Below are positions 2-7,129 of a stretch of DNA of 7,129 bases, piece after piece; position 1 is the first letter of the stretch; each line of letters begins with the position of its first letter. The translations under genes and the position numbers were made by a program. The notes below the pieces were generated by a model, which saw nothing but the letters and a program-made list of their open reading frames with translations, was not told where the DNA came from and did not search any database. Origin of the DNA: an uncultured Candidatus Pelagibacter sp. (GTDB taxonomy: Bacteria > Pseudomonadota > Alphaproteobacteria > Pelagibacterales > Pelagibacteraceae); contig CALCPL010000106.1 of NCBI GenBank assembly GCA_937897125.1, forward strand, positions 1-7,129, read 5' to 3'.

Positions 2-373
2 CTTGATAAATCTGACATAAAAAAAATTAAAAAAATTAAGATAATTAATCTATGGGTAGTTAGGCAATTAAAAAATGAATATAATCCAATTCATTATCAT
101 GAGGGACAATTGTCAGGAGTTGGGTATCTTAAAATCCCAAAAGATATGAATCAAAATAAACTAGTTAAGAATAAAAAGATTAAAACTAATGGAACAATTG
201 ATTTTATTAATGGTCAAAAAAACTTTTTAAGTAAAAGTATCTATAATTTAAACCCTAAATTAGGAGATCTATTGATTTTTCCAAATTATTTAATGCATAC
301 AGCTTATCCATTTAACGTTGATGGTGAGAGAAGATCCTTCTCATTTAATGCTAAAATATTATTCAAGAAGTGA
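2..373 (+). CDS. 2OG-Fe(II) oxygenase-like protein, C-terminal fragment (5' end outside window)
   Basis: The frame is open from base 2 to the TGA at 371-373, giving 123 residues with no credible start, so the gene is cut by the left edge. The fragment looks like the 2OG-Fe(II) oxygenase family with the HxH...SGVxYL pattern (the TIGR02466/PF13759 type, recognised from memory). Visible motifs are H31-Y-H33 followed by LSGVGYL, then a GDLLIFP strand leading to H99, and E-R110-R111-SFSFN. The two histidine sites fit iron ligands, and the arginine fits the group that holds 2-oxoglutarate. The fragment contains most of the catalytic barrel. A TTG at 110 opens a shorter reading, but it lies after the first histidine pair and would destroy the metal site, so it is not the start. 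The substrate cannot be deduced. The next gene starts 162 nt downstream behind its own leader, so the two are probably not co-regulated. Confidence 0.75.
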   Translation, partial: LDKSDIKKIKKIKIINLWVVRQLKNEYNPIHYHEGQLSGVGYLKIPKDMNQNKLVKNKKIKTNGTIDFINGQKNFLSKSIYNLNPKLGDLLIFPNYLMHTAYPFNVDGERRSFSFNAKILFKK

Positions 374-402
374 TTTACTAATCAGTCTATTAGATATATA
401 AA
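374..402 (+). promoter_or_regulatory. candidate sigma70-type promoter for the riboswitch leader
   Basis: TTTACT at 374-379 matches 4 of 6 positions of the -35 consensus. It is followed after 17 nt by TATAAA at 397-402, a 5 of 6 match to the -10 consensus. Initiation would fall at about 404-409, which places the SAM-II-like aptamer at the extreme 5' end of the transcript. In such AT-rich DNA similar matches arise by chance, so the position relative to the aptamer is the main support. Confidence 0.4.
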
Positions 403-403
403 T

Positions 404-450
404 AGTTTAACCGATTTGATCCATATTGCAGGTACTAACTGCTAAAAAGG
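404..450 (+). promoter_or_regulatory. SAM-II-like riboswitch aptamer (upstream member of a tandem)
   Basis: Two conserved strings of the SAM-II H-type pseudoknot are present in the right order: CCATATTGCA at 421-430 and GCTAAAAAGG at 441-450. They can pair as in SAM-II (CC with GG, U residues with the A run, GC with GC). A first stem is possible between ACC 410-412 and GGT 431-433. It can extend outward through A409 with T436 and AGTT 404-407 with AACT 437-440, across small bulges. The stretch GATTTGAT at 413-420 resembles the U-rich loop segment that contacts the first stem in the known structure. SAM-II binds S-adenosylmethionine and usually represses methionine-cycle genes. I see no clear intrinsic terminator after it, so its output is uncertain. 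The stem is weaker than in textbook examples. Confidence 0.7.
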
Positions 451-487
451 AAATCATTTAATAATTGGTAAAGGTAGTTGGACTATA

Positions 488-528
488 TTGTGCACCTTGC
501 ATAAAGCCAAAGCACTAAAAAGGTAAGG
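488..528 (+). promoter_or_regulatory. SAM-V-like riboswitch overlapping the ribosome binding site
   Basis: The segment folds as an H-type pseudoknot. Stem 1 is GTGC 490-493 with GCAC 512-515. The loop begins ACCTTGCATAAAGCC, and ACCTT 494-498 pairs with AAGGT 520-524 downstream of the conserved CTAAAAAGG core at 515-523. This matches the SAM-V class known from marine alphaproteobacteria, which shares its binding core with SAM-II. The pseudoknot strand AAGGT is part of AAGGTAAGGA (520-529), the Shine-Dalgarno sequence of the gene starting at 536. SAM binding should therefore hide the ribosome binding site and repress translation of the methyltransferase. Position, core and target gene agree; ligand specificity is inferred from the class. 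Confidence 0.85.
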
Positions 529-535
529 AATAAAA

Positions 536-1444
536 ATGGATATTAACTTTTTTAAAACAACACGAATTTTAGATGGTGGTATGGGGCAAGAATTATTGGC
601 TCGTGGTATGAAAGCAAATGGAACATTATGGAGTGCTAATGCTGTATTAAAAGAAGAATACCATCAACTTTTATTAGATACTCATTTAGATTTTATTAAA
701 GCAGGTGCTGAAGTTATTGTTACAGCCACTTTTACCACTAGACGAATAAGATTACGTGACAATAAAATTGAAGATAAGTTTGAATACTTAAACAAAAAAG
801 CTGGTGAGATAGCTCAGAAAGCTAAAGAACAATATCCTAATGTTTTAATTGCAGGCGGTCTTCCACCTCAATATTTAACATACGAAGAAGATACAAGACC
901 AGATAATGAAATTAAGCAAAATTTTTATGATCAAGCAAAACTATTAGATCCTTATATTGATTTTTTTTACTTAGATGTTTTGTCTAGTGTAAAAGAGTTT
1001 AAATTAGCAATTGAAGCAATTAAAGAATTTAACAAGCCTTACTTAATGGGTGCTCACATTTCTGAAGGAGTAAATCTTCCAAGTGGTGAAAAAATATCGG
1101 ATATTATTAACAATATTAACCATAAAAATTTACTAGGATTAATTTTATCCTGTGTTTCTCCTGAAAACTTTTCTGAAAATTTAGAAGAAGTAAAAAATTT
1201 AGGTGTTCCGTTTGGATTTAAGCTTAATGCTTTTGTTACAACTAAACCTAAAGATGGTTACACTAATAGTTACAATGTCAGTAAAACTGGTAACCCAAAT
1301 GAATTTTTGGGTCAAAGAAAAGATTTAACACCTGAGTTGATGGCAAATTTTGTTAAAAAATTTAAAGATGCTGGTGCAACTATTTTAGGTGGATGTTGTG
1401 AAACGAGACCTTCTCATATTAAAGAAATGGTTCAGTTTAAGTAG
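536..1444 (+). CDS. bhmT: homocysteine S-methyltransferase (BHMT/MmuM family)
   Basis: This 302-residue cytosolic enzyme should transfer a methyl group to homocysteine to form methionine. The N-terminal ILDGGMGQEL (11-20) is the homocysteine-binding signature of the family. The zinc-binding cysteines are all present: Cys206 in SCVSPENF and Cys287-Cys288 in GGCCE near the C terminus. The length fits the compact single-domain barrel. The ATG at 536 follows AAGGTAAGGA by 6 nt, and this site lies inside the SAM-V pseudoknot, which settles both the start and the likely regulation. The methyl donor is not evident from sequence. Betaine is the best guess because this riboswitch-controlled gene is called bhmT in SAR11, but S-methylmethionine or another donor is possible. 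The 3' end overlaps the convergent transporter gene by 8 nt. Confidence 0.88.
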   Translation: MDINFFKTTRILDGGMGQELLARGMKANGTLWSANAVLKEEYHQLLLDTHLDFIKAGAEVIVTATFTTRRIRLRDNKIEDKFEYLNKKAGEIAQKAKEQYPNVLIAGGLPPQYLTYEEDTRPDNEIKQNFYDQAKLLDPYIDFFYLDVLSSVKEFKLAIEAIKEFNKPYLMGAHISEGVNLPSGEKISDIINNINHKNLLGLILSCVSPENFSENLEEVKNLGVPFGFKLNAFVTTKPKDGYTNSYNVSKTGNPNEFLGQRKDLTPELMANFVKKFKDAGATILGGCCETRPSHIKEMVQFK

Positions 1445-7081: not shown

Positions 7082-7129
7082 CTGTCTCTTATACACATCT
7101 CCGAGCCCACGAGACAAGAGGCAATCTCG
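7082..7129 (+). other. Nextera/Tn5 sequencing adapter contamination
   Basis: The last 48 bases reproduce library read-through rather than genomic DNA. The 19-base Tn5 mosaic end is at 7082-7100, the 15-base Nextera read-2 adapter CCGAGCCCACGAGAC at 7101-7115, an 8-base i7 index AAGAGGCA at 7116-7123, and ATCTCG, the start of the flow-cell P7 primer region, at 7124-7129. The GC content is visibly higher than in the rest of the window. The order and lengths match the commercial adapter exactly. From memory the index corresponds to Nextera N711. Confidence 0.98.

Follow-up and report, generated by a model that had tools for sequence, protein, structure and literature searches.

Does the methionine-forming gene of this Pelagibacter locus stand behind two SAM-sensing RNAs, and if so, do these form the tandem already described in this group or another arrangement? 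The question was raised by an earlier note, made from the sequence, which read a SAM-II-like and a SAM-V-like pseudoknot in one leader and mentioned that such a tandem has reportedly been described in Pelagibacter. It is addressed here with the window, by which we mean the whole stretch of 7,129 nucleotides analysed, and with related leaders. All window features described below lie on the forward strand.

The mmuM-type gene and its SAM-V riboswitch

The leader precedes a gene (536-1444) encoding a homocysteine S-methyltransferase of 302 aa (Pfam PF02574, E 7e-53). By sequence its best solved relative is 5dml, a homocysteine S-methyltransferase, and it scores below the NCBIfam equivalog cut-offs. 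A 2OG-Fe oxygenase-like gene (cut off) is located upstream of the leader, and the genes downstream encode an EamA transporter, a YbaK-like deacylase, glnA and four Fe-S assembly proteins. A match to the snoRNA family sn2524 in the EamA gene (1743-1839; 27.4 bits against a cut-off of 44) was taken as chance. The ~48 terminal bases of the window (7082-7129) resemble an untrimmed Nextera adapter with index and are presumably not genomic. The methyltransferase shares 96% identity with a protein of genome G030; the window thus belongs to a close relative of G030, and the gene is best called mmuM-type. The G030 homologue adjoins the region given for mmuM SAR11_0750 by Meyer 2009.

The presence of a SAM-V riboswitch at 463-526 is certain. 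Rfam RF01826 matches it with 69.3 bits (cut-off 41; E 3.4e-10, whole window), and the match lies at the ribosome-binding site of a methionine-cycle gene, 9 nt from the ATG of the PF02574 gene. The class was reportedly defined by Poiata 2009. P1 is formed by AGGU (472-475) with ACCU (494-497) and P2 by GUGC (490-493) with GCAC (512-515). The letters from which the earlier note had drawn this core are all present (ACCTT at 494-498, GTGC at 490-493 and GCAC at 512-515, with AAGGT occurring twice, at 471-475 and 520-524), but its P1 of ACCTT with AAGGT has to be redrawn as AGGU with ACCU. The sequence AAGGA (525-529), directly 3' of the SAM-V core and 6 nt 5' of the start codon, is a likely Shine-Dalgarno sequence. 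In the model derived from the crystal structure, as the available text presents it, SAM folds the SAM-V pseudoknot and the ribosome-binding site becomes hidden (PMC6061858).

A SAM-II-type element upstream of SAM-V

Positions 410-451 carry a SAM-II-type aptamer with a short P1, whose letters in order are ACC GAUUUG AUCC AUAUUGCA GGU ACUAACU GCUAAAAAGGA. As claimed, both halves of its pseudoknot core were located, CCATATTGCA at 421-430 and GCTAAAAAGG at 441-450. P1 comprises 3 bp (410-412/431-433, ACC/GGU) and is followed by the third strand GAUUUG (413-418); UAUUGC occupies 424-429, P2a is formed by 420-422/449-451 (UCC/GGA) and P2b by 428-430/440-442 (GCA/UGC), and L3 (434-440) has 7 nt. The short-P1 element spans 38-42 nt, counted from P1 to its closing GG. 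The window and the relatives nearest to it have ACC/GGU as P1, others GCC/GGC. The bulged first stem previously drawn by pairing 404-409 with 434-439 is not kept in relatives, where only 410-412/431-433 is conserved.

Rfam scoring, which had been suggested as a check, bore out the SAM-V half of the tandem and left the SAM-II half below threshold: on 400-466 all models fell short of their cut-offs, with 14.5 bits for RF01726 (SAM-II; cut-off 44), 10.6 for RF00521 (SAM_alpha; 36) and 21.0 for RF01826 (SAM_V; 41). Both Rfam SAM-II models are drawn with a P1 of five or six pairs, which 410-451 does not have, its conserved pairs numbering three. The models were also applied at gathering scores to 20 compact tandem loci and to 20 loci with a terminator, the latter being, as judged from their anatomy, of the published tandem kind. 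SAM-V was detected in 20/20 of both, and a SAM-II family in none of either (0/20 and 0/20). Since Rfam misses SAM-II in the terminator-type loci too, its miss at 410-451 is not diagnostic.

Among 37 distinct copies the SAM-II core GAUUU / AUUGC / GCUAAA does not change at all, in contrast to L3 and the flanks; these copies were picked by a pattern containing most of the core letters, and searches with the R1 model, which does not require those letters, agree. The same element is found at the same distance 5' of SAM-V in the leaders of methyltransferase relatives, and this recurrence at one place before SAM-V makes it more than a chance resemblance. Some methyltransferase relatives have neither element (e.g., L053-L060 and L065-L072). 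We consider it very likely that the SAM-II-type element is real. It is an element that would work like SAM-II, with Rfam scores below family membership and a P1 shorter than in the models, and it probably binds SAM.

In alignment A2 of the 37 copies, 96.7% of the cells of the nine pairs proposed for an H-type pseudoknot can pair, and the CC...GG pairs, the loss of which was to count against a SAM-II element, are kept in 36/37 and 37/37 distinct copies (one as U-G). Covariation of the first stem is likewise not lost. Changes on both sides occur in P1 (GC to AU in 2/37) and in P2a (UA to AU in 2/37); four of the nine pairs are invariable (two in P1, two in P2b), and the others change in few rows. 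A control slid by -1 column in A2 reached a covariation score of 0.087 against 0.081 for the structure and contained more cells changed on both sides (10 versus 4), yet it paired only 51% of cells compared with 97%. In a 17-row alignment (A3), composed of 13 related elements (metX and terminator-type) and 4 compact ones, with L155 and L157 left out for unread bases, 4/9 pairs change on both sides. The paired changes count as support and not as proof, the covariation being thin and the sequences related.

Distribution of the element in the family

The R1 model was built from 32 compact copies only. In the family sample it found 85 places in 72 of the 297 genomes. At 45 bits or above there were 64 places, comprising 62 outside metX leaders and two before metX genes (L147, L148); in 62/62 of the former (45.8 to 77.2 bits) a SAM-V core came next, with no run of eight T between. 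Among the 23 places outside compact tandems, 15 were read, and 10 of these lie before metX-like genes. Short-P1 tandems that do have a terminator were also detected, before the metY-like genes of L149, L150, L155 and L159, and in L158 an R1 place precedes a metY-like gene without a SAM-V match. A class-wide search returned matches in 5/240 genomes: G001 and G008 were already in the set, and three were weak, at 31-34 bits (G349:C5:60642, G460:C3:146373, G323:C13:20118). No match was obtained at E up to 0.1 in 28 long-P1 terminator-type loci; because R1 is silent there, the link to their SAM-II copies rests on reading the core.

Gene names in this survey reflect sequence likeness, most of the genes scanned with NCBIfam being partial and below full-length cut-offs. 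L147, L151 and L160 (the three that were scanned of the ten metX-like loci) were best matched by MetX models, and L012, L127, L149 and L158 by O-acetylhomoserine sulfhydrylase (MetY) models. The single SAM-II-type elements before metX genes scored 35-50 bits with R1. Ten metX-like loci (L147, L148, L151-L154, L156, L157, L160, L161) carry single short-P1 elements of this type, none of which was listed by the Rfam SAM-II models at E up to 1. On visual inspection, GGA is followed in most of these ten by a small inverted repeat ahead of the start codon.

On the upstream element SAM_V gave the highest score of the Rfam models (21.0 bits), and the P1 of the element is short, as in SAM-V, so that it might be read as a second SAM-V, or else as a sensor of another ligand. 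We regard this as highly improbable: the element is without the P3 hairpin of the downstream SAM-V and has a P2b of 2-3 bp instead of 4, whereas GAUUUG, the CC/GG of P2a and GCUAAA are SAM-II-like, and R1 finds such elements before metX genes.

The element could also be a relic of the terminator-type tandem, with SAM-V alone regulating the gene. The 3-bp P1 of the window, computed at -0.9 kcal/mol, would suit such decay, as would the same short P1 in the terminator-type metY leaders L149, L150, L155 and L159. A relic is nevertheless improbable, as its SAM-contacting core would hardly be the same in all 37 distinct copies when L3 and most of the linker have drifted, and a relic would be expected to lose P1 and P2a, which a few paired changes instead keep.

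Two leader architectures

A loose SAM-V pattern fitted 139 places; on visual inspection, 36 of them were taken as chance matches within coding DNA and removed. The resulting leaders are best-scoring and hand-picked, from related sequences; SAM-V itself occurs in at least 190 of the 297 genomes among the matches listed. Two architectures emerged, with 67 distinct compact leaders and 36 distinct leaders with a terminator, in which a run of eight T divides the aptamers. The linker from the SAM-II-type element to SAM-V has 18-27 nt in the 67 compact leaders versus 50-67 nt in the 36 terminator leaders. The proposed combination of a SAM-II-type element and SAM-V in one leader before a methionine-forming enzyme is correct for the window, and the element recurs ahead of SAM-V in the 67 distinct compact leaders.

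The window belongs with the compact group. Its linker (452-471) is short and without a terminator-like site, and no such site was found in window positions 330-600. A leader peptide behind the SAM-II GGA was considered and rejected, the window linker having no ATG. Compact leaders precede either the window's methyltransferase type (mmuM-like) or metY-like genes, and terminator leaders precede metY-like genes or a second methyltransferase family (ICAEGFLFEIERRGYM or a close variant), L037 excepted. The member of this second family in G030 is the gene listed as bhmt. The best reading of the leader is a compact, terminator-less two-aptamer form and not the tandem described in Pelagibacter: the bhmT tandem has a terminator and a longer linker, while here the gene is mmuM-type, the linker has ~20 nt and no terminator-like site was seen. 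The suggestion that the two aptamers act at two levels fares no better, since without a terminator that route is not supported by the sequence.

Locus L017 carries a SAM-V (1501-1565) before a gene weakly like methionine synthase, with no SAM-II within 140 nt upstream; the loose pattern misses this SAM-V, which was read separately, and it is a natural single-aptamer control. Two terminator-type leaders, L034 and L009, show additional features. Here 74-77 nt separate SAM-V from the start codon of the bhmT-like gene; the interval holds a possible short open frame that begins with ATGAA, and also CCTTTTTTCTCC, which is largely complementary to the GGAGAAAAGAGG behind SAM-V. The extra frame and the complementary stretch suggest a possible further layer of control in these leaders.

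The compact leaders in the model organism and in the literature

Genome G030 allows comparison with published coordinates. Its glycine riboswitch matches (498458-498615 and 649787-649944) coincide with those given for HTCC1062 in the available part of Meyer 2009 (498458-498706 and 649763-649953; PMC2704228), and the three antisense primers provided in the accessible text of PMC11508383 all match the G030 bhmT leader (3/3). On these coordinates and primer matches, G030 is taken as "Ca. P. ubique" HTCC1062 or the same sequence.

SAM-V matches in G030 are located at 732787-732850, 1005818-1005886, 1126163-1126227 and 1127359-1127423. For HTCC1062, Table 1 of Meyer 2009, as far as the paper was available, lists SAM-V only at 732778-732938 (mmuM) and 1005679-1005890 (metY), and SAM-II/SAM-V at 1127293-1127553 (bhmt) (PMC2704228). 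R1 places compact elements at 732855-732909 (68.9 bits) and 1005758-1005812 (66.0 bits), with the remaining three G030 matches at 18.5 bits or less. Both elements fall inside the mmuM and metY regions that the accessible entries give as SAM-V only; the same genes and intergenic regions correspond to the downstream half of the leader studied here, and in both a SAM-II-type element stands upstream (PMC2704228). The available text of PMC5069961 names SAM-II in P. ubique only at bhmT and metX. In the open literature, as far as its texts were accessible and with Poiata 2009 outside this scope, no report of an upstream SAM-II-type element at mmuM or metY was found.

Among known systems, the closest is the bhmT tandem of P. 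ubique, which according to the accessible texts likewise places a SAM-II-type element 5' of SAM-V in the leader of a methionine-cycle gene (PMC11508383, PMC9481103). Its P1 is longer (of the AGCGC type in the loci read, for which L034 stands) and it carries an intrinsic terminator, compared with a P1 of 3 bp and no terminator found here. As stated in the available portion of a review, the original 120 SAM-II/SAM-V tandems always have an intrinsic terminator (PMC9481103). With the translational metX SAM-II (solved structure 2QWY), the element shares, on the available descriptions, the GAUUU third strand, AUUGC, GCUAAA and the CC/GG of P2a (PMC10907184, PMC6061858), and short-P1 copies before metX genes were found by the same R1 model. 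Those copies stand alone near the start codon, whereas the window element ends 84 nt upstream of it with SAM-V between.

The linker as a predicted anti-aptamer strand

The linker segment AAUUGGU (463-469), a second copy of the P1 3' strand that coincides with positions 1-7 of the Rfam SAM-V match, is complementary to ACCGAUU (410-416) and is predicted to act as an anti-aptamer strand. At or just 5' of SAM-V P1, the linker ends in TCGG[TC] in metY-like compact leaders (L107 has TTGGT) and in TTGG[TC] in the window group. This motif complements [GA]CCGA, that is, the P1 5' strand and the start of the SAM-contacting third strand. The window has ACC, GGU and a linker GGU, L006 has GCC, GGC and a linker GGC. 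T[CT]GG[CT] is present in 57/66 short-P1 leaders (54/62 compact, 3/4 terminator-type) versus 0/32 long-P1 leaders (Fisher p 5e-18, uncorrected for kinship among these related sequences).

The minimum-energy fold of the window leader includes the linker helix and keeps P2a and P2b. In the window the P1 5' strand pairs with the linker at a probability of 0.90, a value reached by 3/30 shuffled linkers. The probability is at least 0.5 in 54/61 leaders and averages 0.86, as against 0.63 for dinucleotide-shuffled linkers. A threshold on complement length is reached by 43/57 distinct linkers; over 300 shuffles the corresponding number averaged 29.1 and never exceeded 38. Both shuffle comparisons give a weak null, because the shuffles retain GG and CG steps; short-P1 and long-P1 leaders differ more clearly, though as relatives they are not independent. 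The computed energy of the linker helix is -5.1 to -8.4 kcal/mol, versus -0.9 to -2.6 for P1 alone. Taken over its full length, the window leader shows no unusual stability (z -0.81; 40/200 shuffles equally stable).

The motif is missing from 8/62 compact leaders, all before mmuM-like genes, and in one motif-less leader, L090, P1 is predicted instead of the linker helix. The mmuM-like compact leaders without the TCGG linker motif are L004, L049-L052, L061-L063 and L073; in these the linker end either looks like an extension of SAM-V P1 or is able to pair with no more than the third strand. For the bhmT tandem, the available text reports that the linker blocks SAM-II in refolded RNA (PMC11508383); the compact linker, a different sequence, could do likewise. 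We hold the case for a linker switch to be evenly balanced.

Possible transcript start and proposed mechanism

Promoter-like hexamers lie at 374-402 (TTTACT at 374-379, a 17-nt spacer and TATAAA at 397-402). In our own scan the window pair matched 9/12, with the second hexamer 7 nt before P1; a stricter promoter scan did not list the 374-402 hexamers. The mean best score in 62 compact leaders was 8.4 versus 7.4 in shuffles, against a high shuffled background. The best second hexamer falls 6 nt before P1 in 43/62 compact leaders and 7 nt before it in 7 more, and on this recurrence the transcript may start at P1. The window hexamers would start transcription at ~408-410, the latter being the first base of the SAM-II-type P1.

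We propose that a short-P1 SAM-II-type pseudoknot stands at the 5' end of the mmuM-type mRNA, or close to it, and is followed by a ~20-nt linker and SAM-V. The upstream arm would adopt one of two states: SAM would keep strand 410-418 in P1 and the SAM-binding triplex, while in its absence 463-469 would capture the 410-418 strand, giving a long hairpin that keeps P2 and destroys the binding site. As the aptamer is complete ~11 nt before the linker segment is transcribed, the decision may fall during transcription. The SAM-V pseudoknot abuts the ribosome-binding site, and high SAM should fold it and hide the site (OFF), as published. Given that no terminator lies between the aptamers, our proposal is that both act on one translation decision and so sharpen the response. 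We infer that the upstream arm binds SAM, that it switches and that it is coupled to SAM-V; the sequence shows no route by which the linker state would reach the ribosome-binding site.

The upstream aptamer might instead bind SAM and act before translation, on RNA polymerase, on Rho access or on the decay of an mRNA that starts at P1. Such a role would fit the position of the window P1, 7 nt behind a promoter-like hexamer, so that the pseudoknot would cap the 5' end, as well as an upstream arm without a start codon of its own in the linker. It would also fit the finding, as given in the accessible text, that sulfur limitation of P. ubique raises metY and mmuM mRNA and not protein alone (PMC5069961); translational repression, however, can also alter mRNA, no terminator-like site was found, and none of the 62 leaders examined for it has eight T in a row. 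We judge action before translation unlikely, although it preserves a form of the idea of two levels.

A compact, terminator-less two-aptamer leader, probably translational and with a linker-switched SAM-II arm, is the reading that we modestly favour. Its coupling to translation through SAM-V is put forward more hesitantly, at slightly less than an even chance. The fullest version is more tentative still: a second, terminator-less SAM-II/SAM-V architecture, with a tiny aptamer, a cotranscriptional linker switch and cooperative action on one ribosome-binding site, could possibly have gone unnoticed in the model organism.

Implications for SAR11 bacteria

Few cells in the ocean are as abundant as SAR11 bacteria, and the supply of methionine and SAM holds a central place in their sulfur economy. 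Should the upstream element work, studies of how SAM controls mmuM and metY have dealt with half of the leader, and affinities obtained from SAM-V alone would misdescribe the real response. One genome offers both architectures, with and without a terminator, and hence a natural pair for testing what is gained from a tandem riboswitch.
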